Source: Hyphomicrobium sp. (GTDB taxonomy: Bacteria; Pseudomonadota; Alphaproteobacteria; Rhizobiales; Hyphomicrobiaceae). Taken from it: a stretch of DNA of 62,157 bases. Under the pieces are notes generated by a model. That model did no database searches, was not told the origin of the DNA, and saw only the letters and a list, made by a program, of their open reading frames with translations. Location: the NCBI GenBank assembly GCA_013141015.1, contig JABFRT010000020.1, forward strand, positions 1-62,157, written 5' to 3'. Positions 43,018-53,036 of this stretch are shown here, one piece after another; the stretch's first letter is position 1, and every line of letters begins with the position of its first letter. A program made the translations under genes and the position numbers.

Positions 43018-44293
43018 TCACGACCGTATTTTCCGCAATCTCTATGGCTTCCATGATGCGGGCCTCAAGGGCGCGATCCGGCGTGGCGCGTGGGATGGCA
43101 CGAAGCTGTTCATCGATAAGGGTCACGACTACATCATTGATGAGGTGAAGAAGTCAGGGCTGCGCGGACGCGGCGGCGCCGGATTTCCGACGGGCCTGAA
43201 GTGGTCGTTCATGCCGAAGAACGATCCGCGCCCAAGCTATCTGGTGATCAACGCCGACGAGTCTGAACCCGGCTCGTGCAAAGACCGCGAAATTCTGCGC
43301 CATGATGCGCATCTGCTGGTCGAAGGCGCACTGCTCGCCTCGTTCGCGATGCGCGCCCACACCGCCATTTGCTACGTGCGCGGCGAATACATCCGCGAAC
43401 GAGAAGCCCTGCAGCGCGCGGTCGATGAAGCTTATTCCGCAAACCTGATCGGCAAGAATAACGTCCACGGCTGGGATTTCGAATTCGTCGTGCATCACGG
43501 CGCGGGCGCCTACATTTGCGGCGAAGAAACCGCGATGCTCGAATCCATCGAAGGCAAGAAGGGCCAGCCGCGCTTGAAGCCGCCGTTCCCGGCGAACGTC
43601 GGGCTATGGGGCGCGCCAACCACCATCAACAACGTCGAAAGCATCGCGGTTACCGGTGAAATCCTGCGGCGCGGCGCGACGTGGTTTGCCGACCTCGGCA
43701 TTCCGAACAACACCGGCACCAAGCTGTTCCAGATTTCGGGCCACGTGAATAAGCCGTGCGTCGTCGAAGAAGAGATGGGTATTCCTCTTAAAGAGCTGAT
43801 CGAAACCCATTGCGGCGGCGTGCGCGGCGGATGGGACAATCTGCTGGCCGTCATTCCCGGCGGCTCATCGGTCCGCTGCATCACGGCTGAGCAGGCGACC
43901 GGCGTCACCATGGATTTCGACGCGCTCGGCAAGCTCGGCTCGGGACTCGGCACGGCGGCCGTCATCGTGATGGACAAGTCGACCGACATCATCGCCGCCA
44001 TCCGGCGTCTGGCATATTTCTACAAGCATGAAAGCTGCGGCCAGTGCACGCCGTGCCGCGAAGGCACCGGGTGGATGTGGCGCGTGCTGGAACGCATGGA
44101 GCGCGGCGAAGCGGCCAAGAGCGAGATCGATTTGTTGTGGGATGTGACCAAGCAGGTCGAAGGCCACACCATTTGCGCGCTGGGCGATGCCGCTGCGTGG
44201 CCAGTGCAGGGGCTGATCAAGAATTTCCGCCCGGTCATTGAAGCGCGGATTGACGACTATACCAAGAAGCATTCGCGCCAGGCGGCGGAGTAG
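43007..44293 (+). CDS. nuoF: NADH-quinone oxidoreductase subunit F
   Basis: From ATG 43007 the protein has 428 residues and is the NADH- and FMN-binding subunit. [17 protein letters not shown] binds [26 protein letters not shown] follows, and cluster N3 is held by [15 protein letters not shown] and the Cys in [13 protein letters not shown]. The length is standard. It ends TAG three bases before an ATG that used to be the nuoG start but now opens a 26-bp partial copy of it (see 44297). Confidence 0.95.
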
Positions 44294-44296
44294 CGC

Positions 44297-44322
44297 ATGA
44301 CCAAGAAACGCATCATCGACGG
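44297..44322 (+). repeat. Left copy of the 26-bp direct repeat (duplicated nuoG start)
   Basis: Positions 44297-44322 and 44821-44846 are identical except for one base (G against T at the 14th position). The right copy is the true nuoG start. The pair flanks the DUF559 element, as a target duplication would. Confidence 0.9.
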
Positions 44323-44386
44323 GGGCGCTGTCTCCCTCTCCCCTTGGGGAGAGGGTCGGGGTGAGGGGGCGTGCTCTGATGCGTAG
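44297..44386 (+). CDS. Leader ORF made of duplicated nuoG start fused to the repeat element
   Basis: This 29-codon frame begins with the first codons of nuoG (ATGACCAAGAAAC...) and runs through the left palindrome as [12 protein letters not shown]. It stops at a TAG that overlaps the ATG of the DUF559 gene by 8 bp. It starts 3 bp after the nuoF stop, where the ancestral nuoG start should have been. It probably encodes no function but keeps ribosomes moving from nuoF into the inserted gene. Expression is inferred. Confidence 0.5.
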   Translation: MTKKRIIDGGAVSLSPWGEGRGEGACSDA

Positions 44387-44820
44387 TGGTCTCGTTGAAA
44401 TTGCGCGCGGTCTTCGTCGCAGCAACACGGCGGCGGAAGAGAAATTGTGGGCTGCACTTCGCAACCGGCAAATGGATGGTTGGAAGTTCAAGCGGCAAGT
44501 CCCGTTTGGAAACTACGTGATCGATTTCTTTTGCTACGACGCACGTCTCGCTGTCGAAGTCGATGGAGCAACGCATTCGTCGGAGCAAGAGTTGGCGAAG
44601 GATGCCGAGCGGGCGGAATTCTTGCGATCCAACGGTGTCCACGTCGTGCGGTATACGAACTCGGAAATCGAAGAGAATTTGGATGGCGTGCTCGAAATGA
44701 TCTATTTACATTTGGGCCAGCAGTCCGCCCCCTCACCCGTCACCCCAAGATTTGGCGCTATCGCGCCGGGGTGCCGACCTCTCCCCAAGGGGAGAGGTGA
44801 AGCCGGAGCGCAGTGAGCAA
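44323..44820 (+). mobile_element. DUF559-encoding palindromic element inserted between nuoF and nuoG
   Basis: The insert is 498 bp. Its left end has a perfect 22-bp palindrome (44334-44355, arms CCCTCTCCCC/GGGGAGAGGG) and then CGGGGTGAGGGGGCG. Its right end has a near inverted copy of that (CGCCCCCTCACCCG at 44727) and a second 20-bp palindrome (44778-44797). A DUF559 nuclease gene fills the middle. It is flanked by the 26-bp direct repeat. A shorter element with the same ends lies at 50049-50208. I infer a mobile or duplicating unit; no known transposase is inside. Confidence 0.75.
44379..44816 (+). CDS. DUF559 domain protein (Vsr-like PD-(D/E)XK nuclease)
   Basis: This 145-residue protein starts at ATG 44379. 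Residues 1-115 are a DUF559 domain: SNTAAEEKLWAALRNRQMDGWKFKRQVPFGNYVIDFFCYDARLAVEVDGATH, with Asp and EVD as likely metal ligands, and VVRYTNSEIEENLDGVLEMI near the end. The family shares the fold of the Vsr mismatch endonuclease. The last ~30 residues ([28 protein letters not shown]) are encoded by the right-hand repeat, not by the conserved domain. The stop lies 4 bp before the nuoG ATG. Its lone position inside a complex I operon, between palindromes, suggests it is the cargo or mover of the element. Activity is untested. Confidence 0.85.
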   Translation: MRSGLVEIARGLRRSNTAAEEKLWAALRNRQMDGWKFKRQVPFGNYVIDFFCYDARLAVEVDGATHSSEQELAKDAERAEFLRSNGVHVVRYTNSEIEENLDGVLEMIYLHLGQQSAPSPVTPRFGAIAPGCRPLPKGRGEAGAQ

Positions 44821-46914
44821 ATGACCAAGAAACTCATCATCGACGGCACGGAGATTGAGGTCGAGGACGGCACCACGCTGATGCATGCGTGCGAGGCTGC
44901 CGGTTCGGAAATTCCGCGCTTTTGCTATCACGAGCGGCTGTCGATTGCCGGCAACTGCCGCATGTGTCTGGTCGATGTTCAAGGCTCGCCCAAGCCGATC
45001 GCGAGTTGCGCGATGCTGGTTGGCGATTTGCCGCCGAACCGCGACGGCAGCCCCAAAGTCGTCAGCACCAATTCGCCGCTCGTTAAAAAAGCGCGTGAAG
45101 GCGTGATGGAATTCCTGCTGATCAATCACCCGCTCGATTGCCCAATCTGCGATCAGGGCGGCGAGTGCGATCTGCAAGACCAAGCGATGGCGTTCGGCAT
45201 TGGCGGCTCGCGCTATTGCGAGAACAAGCGCGCAGTCGAAGAAAAGCACATCGGCCCGCTGATCAAAACGATGATGACGCGCTGCATCCACTGCACGCGC
45301 TGCGTCCGCTACATGACGGAAGTCGCGGGCGTCGAGGAATTGGGTCTGATCTCGCGCGGCGAAGATGCCGAGATCACCACGTACCTCGAAAACGGCATCA
45401 TGTCGGAGATGAGTGCCAACGTGGTGGACCTCTGCCCGGTAGGCGCGCTGACGCACCGGCCGTGGGCGTTCAACGCGCGGCCCTGGGAAATGGACGGCAC
45501 CGAGTCCATCGATGTGATGGATGCGGTCGGGTCCGCGATCCGCATCGATACACGCGGTGGTGCTGTCATGCGCATCCTGCCGCGCAACAACGACGCCGTG
45601 AACGAAGAATGGATTTCCGACAAGACGCGCCACGTGGCCGACGGCTTGAAGGCGCAGCGTCTGGATACGCCTTACATCCGCAAGGACGGCAAGCTGCAAC
45701 CGGCAAGCTGGGATGACGCGCTCGGCCTCGTTGCCGCGAAGTTGAAAGCCGCTAACCCGGACCGCATCGGCGCAATCGCCGGCGATCTCGCGGGCGCTGA
45801 AGAAATGTTCGCGCTCAAGGATCTGCTGACGCGCGGCAGCGTGAAAAGCCTCGATTGCCGGCAAGCCGGCGACAAGCTCGACCCGAAACTCGGCCGCGCC
45901 AGCTACGTGTTCAATTCGTCGATCGACGGCATCGAACAGGCCGACGTGATTTTGATCATCGGGTCAAACCCGCGCATCGAAGCGCCCGTGTTGAATGCGC
46001 GCATCCGCAAGCGCTGGCGCACCGGCGCGTTGAAAGTAGGTCTCGTCGGCGTCAATGTTCCGCTGACCTATCCGGCGGAATATTTGGGCGCTGGTCCCGA
46101 TACGCTGGTCCACATTTCAAGCGGCGAACATCCATTTGCCGCGACGCTGAAAGCCGCGAAGAACCCGATGGTGATCATCGGGCAAGGTGCGTTTGCGCGT
46201 GCCGATGGTTTGGCGGTTCTGTCAGCGGCTGCCCGCATTTTGTTGAGCGTGAGCGCTGGCAAAGATCCAGCCTGGAACGGCTTCAATGTGCTGCATACGG
46301 CGGCGTCGCGCGTTGCAGGCCTCGACCTCGGTTTCGTGCCGGCAACTGGCGGCAAGGACACCGCGGCCATGCTCGCGGGCGGCGTTGACTTCCTCTATTT
46401 GCTCGGTGCGGACGAATGCGATCTGTCACGGCTCGGCGGCGCGTTCGTCGTCTATCAGGGCAGCCACGGCGACCGCGGCGCTGAACGCGCCGACGTGATT
46501 TTGCCGGGCGCGGCCTACACCGAAAAGAGTGCGACTTTCGTCAACACCGAAGGCCGCGCGCAACAAACTGGGAAAGCCGCGTTCGCGCCGGGTCACGCCA
46601 AGGAAGACTGGACGATCATCCGTGCGTTGTCGGAGCGTGCCGGTGCGAAACTCCCTTATGATAGTCTGAGCGAATTGCGGGCCGCTATGTACAAGCCGGC
46701 GCCGCAGCTCGCAGCGCTCGATAGCGTCGAGACGCGCAGTGTTTCGGGCCTTGAAACGCTTGCCAAGTTGACGAGCGCGACATCGTCGGAAGCCTTTGCT
46801 CTTGCGATCCAAGACTTCTATCTCACGAACCCGATTGCCCGCGCGTCCGCGGTGATGGCGGGCCTCAGTCAATTGCGCGCAAGCCGCGACAACAAACTCA
46901 GCGCGGCGGAGTAG
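44821..46914 (+). CDS. nuoG: NADH-quinone oxidoreductase subunit G
   Basis: This 697-residue subunit carries several iron-sulphur clusters. Marks are [19 protein letters not shown] ([2Fe-2S]), [18 protein letters not shown] with its His and Cys ligands, [16 protein letters not shown] with LCPVGALT ([4Fe-4S]), and then a molybdopterin-oxidoreductase-like domain to the end. The true start is ATG 44821, seen from the family N-terminus [17 protein letters not shown]. An upstream in-frame ATG at 44752 lies in the repeat and is not used. The gene follows the inserted DUF559 gene by 4 bp and precedes nuoH by 7 bp. Confidence 0.95.
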
Positions 46915-46921
46915 GCGGGAT

Positions 46922-47944
46922 ATGAGCGACTTTCTTGCATTGATCACAAGCTGGGTGTTGTGGATCTGGTCGTTCACAGCGGTGCAGAGCGTTGCGCTGC
47001 TGGTCGGCCTTCTGGTCATCATCGCGTTCCTGCTGCTGATGGACCGCAAGGTCTGGGCAGCGGTGCAGATGCGGCGCGGCCCGAACGTGGTCGGCCCATT
47101 CGGTTTGCTGCAATCGTTCGCGGACTTGCTGAAGTTCGTATTCAAGGAACCCGTCATTCCAGCGGGCTCGGATAAGATCGTCTTCCTGCTGGCGCCGTTG
47201 GCCACCGCTACGTTTGCTCTTGCCTCGTGGGCGGTGATCCCGGTCAACGAGAACAGCTGGGGCAAGTGGGTGATCTCCGACATGAACGTCGGTATTTTGT
47301 ACCTGCTGGCGATCTCGTCGCTCGGCGTCTACGGCATCATCATGGGCGGCTGGGCATCGAACTCCAAATATCCGTTCATGGGCGCGTTGCGCTCGGCGGC
47401 GCAGATGGTGTCGTATGAAGTCTCCATCGGCTTGGTCATCATTTGCGTGCTGCTGTGCGTTGGCTCGCTGAACGTAACGGCAGTCGTCAACGCGCAAAAG
47501 AACGGCCTTGGCACGCAGATGGGCATGACCAACTCGTTCCTCGATTGGCACTGGTTGACGCTGCTGCCGATGTTCGTGGTGTTCTTCATTTCAGCACTCG
47601 CTGAAACCAACCGCCCTCCGTTCGATCTCGTCGAAGCGGAGTCGGAACTGGTCGCGGGCTTCATGGTCGAATACGGCTCGACGCCGTACCTGCTCTACAT
47701 GCTCGGCGAGTACGTCGCGATCGTCACGATGTGCGCGATGACGACGATCCTGTTTCTCGGCGGCTGGCTGCCGCCGGTCGATGTGGCACCCTTCAACTGG
47801 GTGCCGGGCATCTTCTGGTTCCTCGCCAAGCTGGTCATGGTGTTCTTCATGTTCTCGATGGTGAAGGCGTTCGTGCCGCGCTACCGCTATGACCAGTTGA
47901 TGCGGCTTGGCTGGAAGGTGTTCCTGCCGCTGTCGCTCGTGTGA
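46922..47944 (+). CDS. nuoH: NADH-quinone oxidoreductase subunit H
   Basis: This 340-residue integral membrane subunit has about eight helices and forms the quinone entry site. The most conserved phrases are [36 protein letters not shown] and [31 protein letters not shown]. Length and ends are normal. GCGGGAT precedes the ATG. Confidence 0.96.
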
Positions 47945-47993
47945 TGGTTGTCGCCACCGCCAGCGTCCTGCATTTTTTCGGAGGCTTCGCGCC

Positions 47994-48482
47994 ATGAGCA
48001 TCGCACGCGGTATCAAATCGCTGTTTCTCGTGGAGTTCATCTCCGCGTTCTTCCTGTCGATGCGCTACTTTTTTGCACCGAAGAAGACGCTGAACTACCC
48101 GTACGAGAAGGGCCCGCTCAGTCCGCGCTTCCGTGGCGAACATGTGTTGCGCCGCTATCCGAACGGCGAAGAGCGCTGCATCGCCTGCAAGCTGTGCGAA
48201 GCAATCTGCCCGGCGCAGGCGATCACCATTGAGGCCGGTCCGCGCCGCAACGACGGCACGCGCCGCACCACGCGCTACGACATCGACATGACGAAGTGCA
48301 TCTATTGCGGTTTGTGCCAGGAAGCCTGCCCGGTGGACGCCATCGTCGAAGGCCCGAACTTCGAGTTCGCGACCGAGACGCGCGAGGAACTTTTCTACGA
48401 CAAGGCGCGGTTGCTTGCGAACGGCGACCGCTGGGAACGCGAGATCGCGAAGAACCTCGCACTCGATGCGAAGTACAGGTGA
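47994..48482 (+). CDS. nuoI: NADH-quinone oxidoreductase subunit I
   Basis: From ATG 47994 (GGAGG about 8 bases upstream) the protein has 162 residues. It contains two [4Fe-4S] motifs: [12 protein letters not shown] and [12 protein letters not shown]. These hold clusters N6a and N6b in the electron chain to quinone. The frame is open upstream but this start gives the family N-terminus. A 49-bp gap separates it from nuoH. After its stop, a 220-bp repeat-containing stretch precedes nuoJ. Confidence 0.95.
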
Positions 48483-48489
48483 GGGAACA

Positions 48490-48705
48490 GTGGCACACTT
48501 GAATAAAGCCAACCGCTGTCATCCTCGGCCGTGTGCCGGGGATCCATCGTGCCGCGCATTTAGGAGTACGCCGTTGAATTTCGTGCAAGCTGCCGAATGG
48601 ATCCTAGGGACAAGCCCTAGGATGACAGTTGTGGGGCGGAAGCACGTCCCCTTATCCCTTAGCGGAGAGGGCATGGAAGCCGGTGAAGGCGAGGGGGCTT
48701 TCTGA
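48490..48705 (+). CDS. Bridging ORF through the repeat between nuoI and nuoJ
   Basis: A 71-codon frame starts at GTG 48490, seven bases after the nuoI stop with GAGGGA nearby. It ends in a TGATG overlap with the nuoJ start. Most of it is repeat sequence read as HPRPCAGDPSCR and EWILGTSPRMTVV. The last part crosses a half-palindrome related to the DUF559 element (48652-48671). I do not think the peptide has a function; the point is that the inserted DNA stays open and coupled. Confidence 0.35.
   Translation: MAHLNKANRCHPRPCAGDPSCRAFRSTPLNFVQAAEWILGTSPRMTVVGRKHVPLSLSGEGMEAGEGEGAF
48517..48627. repeat. Palindromic repeat (second family), copy 1
   Basis: This 111-bp unit has ends TGTCATCCT and AGGATGACA. 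Each end holds its own smaller palindrome, on the right GGATCCTAGGG-acaag-CCCTAGGAT. The right ~38 bases match copy 2 at 49389-49480 almost exactly, including a shared AGTTGTGGG beyond the end. Intergenic repeats of this kind are widespread in Hyphomicrobiales. Confidence 0.85.
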
Positions 48706-49361
48706 TGGTGACGGCAATTTTTTTCTATCTGTTCTCGACGCTGGCGATTGCCTCCGCCGCGTTCGTGGTTCTCGCCAAGAACCCGGTCCACGCGGTGCTG
48801 TTCCTGATCCTGACGTTCTTTAACGCGGCCGGACTGTTCGTGCTGCTCAACGCCGAATTCCTGGCCATGCTGCTGATCGTCGTCTACGTCGGCGCGGTTG
48901 CGGTGTTGTTCCTGTTCGTCGTGATGATGCTCGACGTCGACTTCGCGGAATTGAAAGCCGGCTTCATCAAAAACGCGCCGATTGGTATGCTGGTGGGCGG
49001 TGTTGTGCTCGCGGAACTCGTGGCGCTGTTCGCCTTCAAAGGCTTAGCCATTGCACCGGGCAAGATCGCGGCTGCTGCCGTGCCCTCGGGGCTCTCCAAC
49101 ACGGAAGCCTTGGGCCAGATCATTTATACGAAATACGTCTACTTCTTCCAATCGGCCGGCATGGTGCTGCTGGTCGCAATGATCGGCGCGATTGTGTTGA
49201 CGCTGCGCCACCGCGCCGGCGTCAAGCGCCAGTCGATCCCCGATCAGGTTGCGCGCACCACGACCGGCATGGACGTGATCAAGGTTCCGTCAGGCGGATA
49301 CACCATTCCCGCCGCCGTCAAAGCCGCCACCGTTATTGCAAAGCCGGAGCCTGCGGAATGA
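48705..49361 (+). CDS. nuoJ: NADH-quinone oxidoreductase subunit J
   Basis: This 218-residue subunit has five helices, starting TAIFFYLFSTLAIASAAFVVLAKNPVHAVLFLILTFFNAAGLFVLLNAEF. The NPVHAVLFLIL phrase and the next two helices (LLIVVYVGAVAVLFLFVVMML) are the conserved core. It is flanked on both sides by copies of the second palindromic repeat. Both its start and stop overlap bridging ORFs by TGATG. Confidence 0.95.
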   Translation: MVTAIFFYLFSTLAIASAAFVVLAKNPVHAVLFLILTFFNAAGLFVLLNAEFLAMLLIVVYVGAVAVLFLFVVMMLDVDFAELKAGFIKNAPIGMLVGGVVLAELVALFAFKGLAIAPGKIAAAAVPSGLSNTEALGQIIYTKYVYFFQSAGMVLLVAMIGAIVLTLRHRAGVKRQSIPDQVARTTTGMDVIKVPSGGYTIPAAVKAATVIAKPEPAE

Positions 49362-49531
49362 TGGCTCAGGGCTCGCAACGTCCAACAGTGTCATCCTGGG
49401 CCTCGTGCCCAGGATCCATCGCGCCGCTTGGTTCGGAGCGTGTGGATGAATGGATCCTAGGGACAAGCCCTAGGATGACAGTTGTGGGTGGGCAGCGTTT
49501 GGAGAATAGCGTACTGGAGCCAGCGCAATGA
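49361..49531 (+). CDS. Bridging ORF through the repeat after nuoJ
   Basis: A 56-codon frame starts at ATG 49361, overlapping the nuoJ stop (TGATG). It reads through the repeat as SWASCPGSIAP and DEWILGTSPRMTVVGG, and ends overlapping the next ATG at 49528 (ATGA). Its right half uses the same frame of the repeat as the nuoI-nuoJ bridge. Function of the peptide is doubtful. Confidence 0.35.
   Translation: MAQGSQRPTVSSWASCPGSIAPLGSERVDEWILGTSPRMTVVGGQRLENSVLEPAQ
49389..49480. repeat. Palindromic repeat (second family), copy 2
   Basis: This 92-bp unit has ends TGTCATCCT and AGGATGACA and inner palindromes CCTGGGC-ctcgt-GCCCAGG and CCTAGGG-acaag-CCCTAGG. The right part matches copy 1 near nuoI; the middle differs in length. 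Confidence 0.85.
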
Positions 49532-49782
49532 GCAACGGCGCGTCTCTACTTTGGCTTGCGGTTCCGGTTGCCCTCGGGGGGATAGCTGCGGCTGTCGACC
49601 GCGCAATGAAAGGCCGCTGGCTGGCATTGCTCATTGCGCTCGGAGGCATCGCATTTGGGCTCTACGTTGGCTCGATGGGATACATGCAAGGCGTGTGGGC
49701 GTGGCTGCTCATGGTTGGTCTGCTTGGTGCTGGCTACGCGGCTACCGAAATGCTGATCTTTGGCAGGAGGCGTATGAGCTGA
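49528..49782 (+). CDS. Small membrane protein between nuoJ and nuoK
   Basis: This 84-residue protein has three hydrophobic segments (LLWLAVPVALGGIAAAVD, WLALLIALGGIAFGLYVG, WAWLLMVGLLGAGYAATEMLIF). GGAG lies just upstream of the ATG. It overlaps the bridging ORF before it (ATGA) and the next gene (TGATG). I recognise no family. Its place suggests a small accessory of complex I, which is only inference. Confidence 0.6.
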   Translation: MSNGASLLWLAVPVALGGIAAAVDRAMKGRWLALLIALGGIAFGLYVGSMGYMQGVWAWLLMVGLLGAGYAATEMLIFGRRRMS

Positions 49783-50009
49783 TGGCCGAAGGCAATGGAC
49801 ACGACAAGCCGAACGTGACGTCGCTGGATGACGCACGCCGGCGCGCGGCGGAAAAGGCGAAGGCCGAGAAGCGTGGCACGGCGCCTGTCCGCGGACCGCG
49901 TACGGCTCGAGACTGGCTGATCGGCGGCGTGACGATTGCTTTTGCTGTGGGGTTCGTCGCCTGGATGTTGATGAGGCTCGCAAACGCTGTGAGCGGGGGA
50001 GCTGCATGA
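49782..50009 (+). CDS. Small single-helix membrane protein before nuoK
   Basis: This 75-residue protein has a charged N-terminal half (NVTSLDDARRRAAEKAKAEKRG) and one membrane helix (WLIGGVTIAFAVGFVAWMLM). GGAGG lies 12 bases before the ATG, and the start overlaps the previous stop. Its TGA overlaps the ATG at 50006, which is the left, duplicated copy of the nuoK start. That suggests this gene was originally coupled directly to nuoK. Confidence 0.6.
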   Translation: MAEGNGHDKPNVTSLDDARRRAAEKAKAEKRGTAPVRGPRTARDWLIGGVTIAFAVGFVAWMLMRLANAVSGGAA

Positions 50010-50048
50010 CCATTACACTCGGCCATTATCTGACGGTTGCGGCGTGCC
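50006..50048 (+). repeat. Left copy of the 43-bp direct repeat (duplicated nuoK start)
   Basis: Positions 50006-50048 and 50209-50251 are identical except for one base (C against T at the sixth position). They encode the first ~14 residues of NuoK ([14 protein letters not shown]). The right copy continues as functional nuoK; the left one runs into the inserted element. Confidence 0.95.
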
Positions 50049-50212
50049 ACTGCTCCCTCTCCCCTTGGGGAGAGGGTCGGGGTGAGGGGGGTGTCTCTTT
50101 CATCATCGACCAAAAATCCGCCCCCTCACCCGGCACCCTGCGACTTGGCGCTGCCGCGCCGGGGTGCCGACCTCTCCCCAAGGGGAGAGGTGAAACCGGA
50201 GCACGCGCATGA
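50006..50212 (+). CDS. Bridging ORF: duplicated nuoK start fused through the short element
   Basis: This 68-codon frame begins as NuoK ([14 protein letters not shown]) and continues through the inserted element as [12 protein letters not shown] and [18 protein letters not shown]. Its TGA overlaps the real nuoK ATG at 50209 (ATGA). It reads the left and right repeat ends in the same frames as the leader ORF and DUF559 tail at nuoF-nuoG. So the coupling seen at the ancestral nuoK start is kept on both sides of the insertion. The peptide itself is probably non-functional. Confidence 0.4.
50049..50208 (+). mobile_element. 160-bp gene-less version of the DUF559 palindromic element
   Basis: The left palindrome (50055-50076) and the right palindrome (50171-50190) match those of the element at 44323-44820 base for base. 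The adjoining stretches (GGTCGGGGTGAGGGGG on the left; CCGCCCCCTCACCCG, CGCGCCGGGGTGCCGACC on the right) also match closely. The DUF559 gene is absent and replaced by about 20 unrelated bases. It is flanked by the 43-bp direct repeat. It looks like a MITE-like derivative moved in trans. Confidence 0.8.
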
Positions 50213-50517
50213 CTATTACACTCGGCCATTATCTGACGGTTGCGGCGTGCCTGTTCACGCTCGGCATCTTCGGCATCTTCCTGAACCGCAAGAACGTCAT
50301 CGTGATTTTGATGTCGGTTGAGCTGATGCTGCTCGCCGTCAACATCAACCTCGTGGCGTTCGCGAACTTCAATGGCGATCTCGTCGGCCAAGTGTTTGCA
50401 TTGTTCATTCTGACGGTGGCGGCGGCGGAAGCGGCCATCGGGCTTGCAATCATCGTCGTGTACTACCGCAACCGCGGCTCCATCGCAGTCGACGACATCA
50501 ACATGATGAAGGGTTGA
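50209..50517 (+). CDS. nuoK: NADH-quinone oxidoreductase subunit K
   Basis: This 102-residue membrane subunit has three helices. It starts [51 protein letters not shown], with the conserved Glu in [11 protein letters not shown], and ends in the family [22 protein letters not shown]. It is a proton-channel antiporter-like subunit. The start is set by the right copy of the direct repeat; GGAG lies 9 bases upstream within the inserted element, so its ribosome-binding site is now supplied by the element. Confidence 0.96.
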
Positions 50518-50536
50518 AAGGAGAGGGCGTGGGCAA

Positions 50537-50972
50537 TAGGGAGTTGGGAGTAGCAGGATTTGGGCGAGGCTATTCGATCATACAGAGATCTGGTGGTCTG
50601 GCAGCAAGCGATGGCGCTGGCGGCATCCTGCTACAAAGCGACAAAGGCTTTTCCAGCCTCCGAAGCTTACGGAATGACATCGCAGATTAGAAGGGCGGCA
50701 GTGTCCATCCCGGCAAACATTGCCGAGGGCAACGGCCGGGAGAATACGGGTTCTTATATTCACTCTTTGCGAATTGCTCAGGGATCGCTGAAAGAACTCG
50801 AAACGCACGTACTGCTGGCGGAGACAGTTGAGTTGATGAACAAGGTAGACTCGGAAAAATTGTTGGAAGCTTGCGACGCTGTAGGCCGCTTGCTGCGCGG
50901 CTTAATCCGGTCGCTGCAAGCAAAGGACATCTCATGACCGCCATTGCTCAACTCCCAACTCCCAACTCCCTA
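50537..50972 (+). mobile_element. Four-helix-bundle gene cassette with 15-bp terminal inverted repeats
   Basis: A perfect 15-bp inverted repeat (TAGGGAGTTGGGAGT at 50537-50551; its complement at 50958-50972) encloses a four-helix-bundle gene. Seven bases, CAATAGG, occur at both edges (50534-50540 and 50977-50983) and might be a target duplication partly overlapping the repeat. The cassette sits between nuoK and nuoL. No transposase is present. Confidence 0.7.
50560..50937 (+). CDS. Four-helix-bundle protein (S23/IVS, Avd-like)
   Basis: This 125-residue protein starts at TTG 50560, after an in-frame TAG inside the left inverted repeat. The pattern [52 protein letters not shown], and [28 protein letters not shown] is that of the 23S rRNA intervening-sequence protein family. 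This family is a basic four-helix bundle that forms pentamers and includes Avd of diversity-generating retroelements. No reverse transcriptase or variable repeat is nearby, so a DGR role is not supported. Function in this setting is unknown. Its stop overlaps a 20-codon bridging frame. Confidence 0.88.
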
Positions 50973-50992
50973 CCTCCAATAGGCAACGCCTC

Positions 50993-50996
<4 letters not shown>
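50934..50996 (+). CDS. 20-codon bridging ORF to nuoL
   Basis: ATG 50934 overlaps the stop of the four-helix-bundle gene (ATGA), and its TGA at 50994 overlaps the nuoL ATG at 50993 (ATGA). The frame [20 protein letters not shown] passes through the right inverted repeat. It has the form of a translational coupling bridge rather than a functional peptide. Confidence 0.4.
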
Positions 50997-52361
<1,365 letters not shown>

Positions 52362-52378
<17 letters not shown>

Positions 52379-53036
52379 TCACGCTGTCCATGCCAAGGAT
52401 GATCACAAGCACGATGATCACGCCCACGGGCATGACGATCACGGCCATGCCCATGAACCGCATGAAAGCCCGGCGTCGATGCTGATCCCGCTCGGCGTGC
52501 TGTCGCTTGGAGCGCTGTTCGCGGGCGTCGTGTTCACCGGGTACTTTATCGGCCACCACGAAGCCGGGTTCTGGGGCGCGTCGATCTTCAAGGGCGAGCA
52601 CAACCACATCCTGCACGCCATGCATGAGATCCCGGCATGGGTCGGGTTTGCGCCGTTCGTTGCGATGCTGGCGGGCCTCGCGCTGGCATACCTCTATTAC
52701 ATTGCTGTGCCTTCTCTACCGGCGGCCACCGCGCGCGCTTTCCGTCCACTCTACTTGTTCTTCTTGAACAAGTGGTACATCGACGAACTGTACGACGCGG
52801 TGTTCGTGCGGCCTGCCTTCGCGATTGGCCGCTTCTTCTGGAAGGGTGGCGATGGCGCCATCATCGACGGCACAATCGACGGGACCGCGGCGGGCGTCGC
52901 CGCTGTCACCGGCCGGGTCGTCAAATTGCAGACGGGCTATATGTATCACTACGCCTTCGCGATGCTGATCGGCGTCGCGGCGCTGCTGACGTGGCTCACC
53001 TATAACGCCGGTTTGATGGGGGGCGCGGGCCAATGA
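52362..53036 (+). pseudogene. nuoL: NuoL C-terminal part after the frameshift
   Basis: The frame has a His/Asp-rich loop ([28 protein letters not shown]) followed by ASMLIPLGVLSLGALFAGVVF and FLLNKWYIDELYDAVF-like text (FFLNKWYIDELYDAVFVRPAF). The terminal helix is [17 protein letters not shown]. This is the usual C-terminus of NuoL, including the piston-helix region. GTG 52362 could start it separately, but it has no clear ribosome-binding site and no independent function. Its TGA overlaps the nuoM start (ATGA). Confidence 0.85.

Follow-up and report, generated by a model that had tools for sequence, protein, structure and literature searches.

Palindromic elements, a DUF559 nuclease and duplicated gene starts in the complex I operon of a Hyphomicrobium genome

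The nuo operon and its duplicated gene starts

The DNA considered here, hereafter the window, is a contig of 62,157 nucleotides (C14) from a 3.94-Mb Hyphomicrobium genome (G000), and carries a complex I (nuo) operon whose gene junctions between nuoF and nuoL are occupied at several points by palindromic elements and small genes. Between nuoF and nuoG (44821-46914; the features of the operon lie on the forward strand) stands an element formed by a gene for a DUF559 protein (44379-44816), a relative of the Vsr/EDxHD-type nucleases, and by a left (44332-44369) and a right (44724-44809) palindromic arm. Two copies of a second palindromic repeat family flank nuoJ (48517-48635 and 49389-49488), a gene-less derivative of the DUF559 element (50052-50202) precedes nuoK (50209-50517), and a gene of the 23S rRNA IVP family lies between nuoK and nuoL. 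The left arm of the nuoG element is 100% identical over 38 bp to the element at nuoK, the right arm, which ends in a GGAG motif, 91% identical over 86 bp; the gene-less copy shares both ends with the putatively autonomous nuoG element, as is expected of miniature inverted-repeat transposable elements (MITEs). On balance, the operon appears to be host to mobile palindromic elements with a gene for a DUF559 nuclease, to a gene-less derivative of these and to unrelated palindromic repeats, a reading that we favor slightly.

At both nuoG and nuoK the element is placed between two direct copies of the start of the gene that follows it. The copies measure 26 bp at nuoG, where the left, truncated one (44297-44322) runs from the ATG to +26 and is identical to the right, functional one (44821-44846) at 25 of 26 positions, and 45 bp at nuoK, where the left copy (50004-50048) agrees with the functional start (50207-50251) at 44 of 45. 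In each case the downstream gene retains the complete start and the upstream copy continues in frame into the element, giving two of the bridging frames described below. Throughout the window only four direct repeats spaced 60-2000 bp apart score at least 18: the nuoG start, the nuoK start, the pair of second palindromic repeats and a homology between nuoL and nuoM.

NuoH was matched in 94 of 103 genomes of the family, and the nuo stretches of 59 of the 93 other NuoH-positive genomes were compared (60 stretches, that of G090 being in two). Junctions in the genus are often tight (12-19 bp between nuoF and nuoG, -4 at nuoH-nuoI and nuoJ-nuoK, 6-7 at nuoK-nuoL); a gap of at least 60 bp was taken as wide, and the 130 wide gaps found across the nuo stretches are not independent where they come from related genomes. 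The start of the downstream gene was duplicated at five of these junctions (scores 23-42, with control anchors reaching at most 15), namely at nuoG in the window, G051, G055 and G090, and at nuoK in the window. The copied nuoG stretch stops at +26 in all four genomes, the next base fitting too in G055. Left and right nuoG copies differ by 1, 1, 0 and 0 of the 26 positions, and the right copies differ between genomes by 1-5. The nuoF-nuoG junction of G051 (L128) holds three inserts in series. By eye, each follows a full or residual copy of the nuoG start, of 9, 15 and 26 nt, which gives the impression of repeated entry at this site.

Outside the nuo operon, the flanks of 71 DUF559 loci, which account for 72 of the 84 PF04480 matches listed, were scanned for direct repeats. 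Host-derived repeats, distinguished by eye from other strong repeats that are the palindromic arms themselves, were present at five loci: the nuoG sites of the window, G051 and G090, and one locus each in G026 and G078. In G026, 36 nt of the 3' end of a gene recur around the DUF559 element with 2 mismatches, and the best match of that gene is the CckA kinase (680 bits, under the 1000-bit cut-off, for a partial frame). In G078, 80 nt of a host gene are found again beyond the element with 12 mismatches (L075, 437-516 and 993-1072); they cover most of the last 30 codons of a gene for a repeat-containing protein. Repeats of upstream gene ends at the wide nuo junctions were limited to two weak candidates, scoring 15 and 13, which had no control and were not used. 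A strict pattern of nuoG start plus arm, searched in 397 genomes of the order, returned G051 only, and as it misses the window's own copy it is too strict for any conclusion.

Open frames across the junctions

The original prediction listed five open frames that cross the junctions between nuoF and nuoL and meet the next start closely, and direct reading of the sequence confirmed all of them. The first (44297-44386) fuses the duplicated nuoG start to the left arm and its stop overlaps the DUF559 ATG (44379) by 8 nt, while 4 bp separate the DUF559 stop (44816) from the nuoG start (44821). The second (48490-48705) leads from the end of nuoI to nuoJ through a TGATG junction, and the third (49361-49531) opens in the nuoJ stop, again as TGATG, and joins a small gene at 49528 as ATGA. 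The fourth (50006-50212) runs from the duplicated nuoK start through the gene-less element to meet nuoK (50209) as ATGA, and the fifth (50934-50996) goes from the stop of the IVP-family gene to nuoL (50993), ATGA to ATGA. The coupling motif ATGA or TGATG is therefore found at four of the five frames and the 8-nt overlap at the other. The frames at nuoG and nuoK do more than cross inserted DNA, as they open with duplicated starts of host genes. Taken alone, the frames of the window are mildly improbable: when the four window gaps were shuffled by dinucleotides, 38%, 25.5%, 48% and 25% of the shuffles contained a coupled chain of open reading frames (ORFs), a joint chance of about 1% for a case that was chosen after the fact.

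Across the relatives, in-frame bridging of the gaps at nuo junctions is far commoner than in the shuffled, reversed or phase-shifted controls. A single ORF bridges 70 of the 130 wide gaps, where dinucleotide shuffling predicts 17.5, and a chain of ORFs spans 100 (50.6 expected from shuffles). Gaps containing palindromic motifs are bridged in 24 of 47 cases (4.8 expected), and those without them in 46 of 83 (12.6 expected), some of the latter by what look like real small genes. When similar gaps were merged into 85 clusters, 17.95 of the 30 repeat-bearing clusters were bridged as compared with 4.25 after reverse complementation. Keeping the edges and altering the interior only, the observed value for 18 short repeat clusters was 14.0, with 6.6 for shuffled, 10.5 for reversed and 4.7 for phase-shifted interiors, and for all 68 clusters 37.3, with 16.4, 18.8 and 10.4, respectively. 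Counting stop/start overlaps alone, the observed 38 of 130 stood against 15 in reversed sequence, and among the 109 gaps longer than 110 bp 29 were observed vs. 7.5 after phase shifting; at nuoH-nuoI there was no excess of such overlaps (3/25 vs. 6/25 reversed).

Between nuoK and nuoL, an ORF ending in the ATGA of nuoL bridges 14 of 18 gaps (3.3 expected), a nineteenth gap, in G101, having been left out because nuoL does not start there with ATGA. Mycobacterial interspersed repetitive units (MIRUs) follow a DTGA target rule and duplicate a short stop/start of about 4 bp. In the passages of PMC12548453 devoted to them, MIRUs are small mobile repeats located at start codons, with an ORF coupled to the next gene at -4 spacing that is thought to soften the insertion. 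The frames of the window resemble them in that the ORF of a repeat is coupled to the gene that follows, at its start codon. An insertion of the same kind, in which the ORF of the repeat itself couples to the next gene under a short target rule at overlapping stop and start codons, would account for the coupling motifs in the window and for the frequent use of the nuoL ATGA, and has its precedent in mycobacteria; we nevertheless hold it to be very improbable, as what is duplicated here is 26 and 45 bp of a host gene start and not a short stop/start of about 4 bp, the same behavior is seen in several repeat families that are unrelated, and no conserved element peptide is encoded by the open frame. 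The family described here further departs from MIRUs in encoding a nuclease, in sharing its manner of coupling with unrelated repeats and in the phylum of its host.

The DUF559 nuclease and the movement of its elements

The DUF559 protein of the window matches PF04480 with 121 bits, a family found in 48 of the 103 genomes, and in Pfam it otherwise hit only MTES_1575 and, weakly, DUF2726, with no intein family. Compared with PDB, a profile built on 28 DUF559 proteins retrieved 3hrl, a gonococcal endonuclease-like protein (3.6e-34), and 3r3p, the domain of the homing endonuclease I-Bth0305I (2.3e-5), and the same two structures were the top two Foldseek matches of the predicted model (pLDDT 83; 1.4e-4 for 3r3p). 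With residues D48, E59, D61, H65 and D74 invariant, the protein is predicted to combine the catalytic fold and the E/D/x/H/D residues of the EDxHD nucleases. DUF559 is named EDxHD in passing in a part of a cyanobacterial genome paper (PMC9403480), and Caulobacter VsrA is presented as a Vsr-like DUF559 protein in a section of PMC12907096. Nuclease fold, catalytic residue pattern and lineages conserved at a site thus bring the element close to EDxHD/Vsr-like homing endonucleases such as I-Bth0305I, whereas palindromic arms enclose its gene, and a duplicated start, not splicing, preserves the host gene.

The arms accompany the nuclease gene in other genomes. Among the 56 DUF559 loci long enough for the comparison, arm words occurred on both sides of the gene in 35, as against 0/56 at each of four shifted positions, and on one side only in 16 (3, 5, 18 and 4 of 56 in the shifted controls). 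The right arms of both window elements (44729-44800 and 50122-50193, minus strand) match the Rfam family whalefall-1 RNA (RF01762) with 22.9 and 24.3 bits, the gathering threshold being 37, and judging from this similarity whalefall-1 RNA may be another such repeat; no intron family was returned by Rfam for 43800-51400 at E<=1.

In a tree of 63 DUF559 copies the four nucleases of the nuoG site form one clade (FastTree support 0.867, ultrafast bootstrap 99), within which the window and G055 are joined with 0.987. The NuoG tree, read without support values, pairs the window with G051 and is discordant with that of the nuclease. In G091, which the NuoG tree places as sister of G090, the junction measures 17 bp and is free of the element, and G057, 97.3% identical to G055 in NuoG, lacks the nuoG element and carries a different insert instead. 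Tree discordance, sisters free of the element and near-identical left and right copies in each genome point to a recent movement of the element to one nuoG site, whose occupation in four genomes of two genera is in keeping with horizontal spread. At a second conserved site in the genus, DUF559 elements occupy the junction of recF with a gene that by eye resembles dnaN, in G041, G042, G045 (where it is broken), G054 and G059, with the element in the other orientation in G060; the identity of recF was confirmed for G041. At these loci (L068, L074, L118, L065, L092, L081) the recF frame mostly opens inside the element arm.

Such a distribution raises the question of homing in place of transposition, i.e., of a site-specific element, resembling a homing endonuclease gene, that cleaves nuoG around codon 9 and enters as a copy through recombination between homologous flanks, with a start duplication that arose once and travels along. 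The shared nuoG site, the single nuclease clade with its discordant tree, the homology to an EDxHD homing endonuclease and the second site near recF all agree with this scheme. It is at odds with left and right copies that match within a genome rather than across genomes, a pattern that, barring conversion, suggests a new duplication on each occasion, and with the duplications at nuoK, in G026 and in G078, all of which lie at other sites; we regard it as rather unlikely.

Gene-less copies of the family also occur inside proteins. In the genome of the window, for which the census of repeat cores is incomplete (50 of 59 sites listed), they were found in frame in MnmE, an Nnr-type enzyme, a BchE-like radical-SAM protein and IleS, that is in 4 of the 23 two-core copies examined by a scan that detects in-frame cases only. 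The copy in MnmE adds about 37 residues to a linker that is short in 18 of 18 other MnmE proteins of the genus, and IleS of G051 carries an insert at the same place as IleS of the window's genome (by eye). The BchE-like copy (G000:C30:31790-31919, L009) resides in an anaerobic cyclase recognized by TIGR02026 with 509 bits, above the cut-off.

Rickettsial palindromic elements (RPEs), proposed in the original prediction as the nearest parallel, are a fitting one for these same-family copies inside conserved proteins, while for the coupling between genes MIRUs are nearer. RPEs and other in-frame MITEs (ERIC, Correia, YPAL) are palindromes of ~100-150 bp, some of them in frame in conserved proteins, according to the relevant parts of PMC10969869 and PMC2229807; in a table of the latter, the target duplication of RPEs is entered as "?". 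The present elements differ from RPEs in their host, a relative of Hyphomicrobium and not Rickettsia, in the associated DUF559 nuclease and in the long duplications of gene starts or ends. Palindromic repeats of another alphaproteobacterium, the Br-REP elements of Bradyrhizobium, are reported in intergenic regions and 3'-UTRs in the pertinent portion of PMC5082802. The ORF coupling of MIRUs and the in-frame palindromes of RPEs and MITEs are therefore already known, and MIRUs and RPEs are the closest precedents; in the open-licence literature no work was found in which DUF559 is connected with either palindromic repeats or gene-start duplication.

DUF559 and its palindromic arms might tentatively be seen as a distinct, homing-like mobile class. 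An EDxHD/Vsr-type nuclease would drive the insertion, at set positions a short way into host genes of important operons, a duplication of 26 to ~80 bp would rebuild the gene start or end and leave the host viable without splicing, and gene-less derivatives would then spread to neighboring genes and, in frame, into proteins. The odds of this whole scheme being correct appear to us somewhat below even.

Insertion, passage of ribosomes and accompanying genes

The DUF559 nuclease may initiate an insertion in which offset nicks or repair synthesis duplicate the target DNA, over 26-45 bp where the case is clear and ~80 bp in a single diverged one. Selection would subsequently keep those inserts that ribosomes can traverse, because an untranslated hairpin in the middle of an operon would hide the next start and expose the RNA to Rho. 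Rho-dependent polarity on untranslated RNA is treated as established where PMC12548453 discusses it. The gene-less element before nuoK is predicted to fold into a hairpin of -96.8 kcal/mol (z = -7.1) in which the GGAG motifs preceding the nuoK start are mostly paired, and because of this predicted pairing nuoK probably needs a ribosome arriving through the duplicated start, which would open the hairpin and finish at the ATGA. We assign a probability of roughly 0.55 to the combination of elements with start duplication and selection for ribosome passage as the best explanation of the whole.

Several results weigh against this combined explanation. The repeats themselves, at 64-68% G+C and for that reason open, are no more so than their dinucleotide shuffles: out of six frames, 2.62 are open vs. 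3.23 (n = 8) and 2.13 vs. 2.18 (n = 15) in the window's genome, and 2.82 vs. 3.25 in G051 (n = 11). Reversal of the interior alone leaves 10.5 of the 18 short repeat clusters bridged (observed 14.0), and the 14 bridges between nuoK and nuoL include four that appear to be one real small gene and two that cross the IVP gene in another frame. Outside nuo there was no excess of run-through in G000 and G051, with 2 of 8 copies at codirectional gene ends (one being the nuoK copy) compared with 9 of 22 others, on crude gene calls. Neither hairpin strength (p = 0.91) nor accessibility of the start (p = 0.18) differed between the 70 bridged and 60 unbridged junctions, and hairpin strength or start burial was consequently not upheld as a general driver of bridging. 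Most copies show no duplication: host-derived flanking repeats occur at 5 of the 71 DUF559 loci, 17 other copies in the window's genome showed no flanking repeat scoring at least 14 within 300 bp, and none is seen at the MnmE copy despite its young appearance. The duplicate of G055 lies around a gene-less copy, with no clear left copy at the adjoining DUF559 element, and the G078 gene has internal repeats, its duplicate possibly predating the element.

The statement of the original prediction that only insertions preserving coupling, or elements built to be frame-open, survive in operons is accordingly retained in part: inserts in nuo keep translation continuous beyond the controls, but the elements are not built open, and the expected difference between copies within operons and copies elsewhere did not appear at codirectional gene ends. 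Ordinary survivorship would explain many of these findings, with random GC-rich inserts among which operon-breakers were lost, open frames resulting from composition and purifying selection, and start duplications as incidental tandem duplications that made room. Elements no more open than shuffles, the scarcity of duplications, and the bridging of wide junctions devoid of palindromic motifs, some apparently by real small genes, all speak for it. We judge it unlikely, given that the two gene-start copies lie exactly around elements and are two of only four such strong direct repeats in 62 kb, and that the copy ends at +26 in four genomes.

If start duplication combined with selection for ribosome passage is correct, it would offer a concrete route by which parasitic DNA enters a compact and important operon, the start (or end) of a host gene being copied across the insertion so that both neighboring genes stay whole and ribosomes keep moving. 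DUF559, a domain of unknown function, would gain a role in moving repeats, elements of MIRU, RPE and homing type would be linked, and the limits on insertions within operons would become testable.

Two small genes precede the nuoK element. The first (49528-49782) appears membrane-like by eye and has no Pfam match; the second (49782-50009), whose stop overlaps the duplicated nuoK start as ATGA, has look-alikes before nuoK in G050, G051, G055 and G057 (similarity by eye), and because of these it is probably old and no part of an insertion. At E<=0.01 Pfam gave no match for either gene or for two bridging frames. The second palindromic repeat recurs elsewhere in the genome within tandem units of ~368 bp (L044, contig C17, about 76.0-79.0 kb).

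The IVP-family ORF between nuoK and nuoL (50560-50937; PF05635, 5.1e-36) codes for a four-helix bundle, with CTCCCAACTCCC-type arms outside the ORF. A gene of this family occupies the same junction in G050, G096 and G090, that is in four genomes of three genera (the window; L172, L171, L186), and in these gaps the ATGA-to-ATGA distances are 59, 56, 50 and 50 nt, in one common phase. The ATGA at 50934 had been considered as a copied nuoL start and was rejected, since the IVP-family gene ends in it and four of four IVP-bearing gaps have an ATGA there. nuoL itself is read as two overlapping frames (50993-52378 and 52362-53036), broken at a His/Asp-rich stretch (52362-52378), which may reflect a frameshift or an assembly error.

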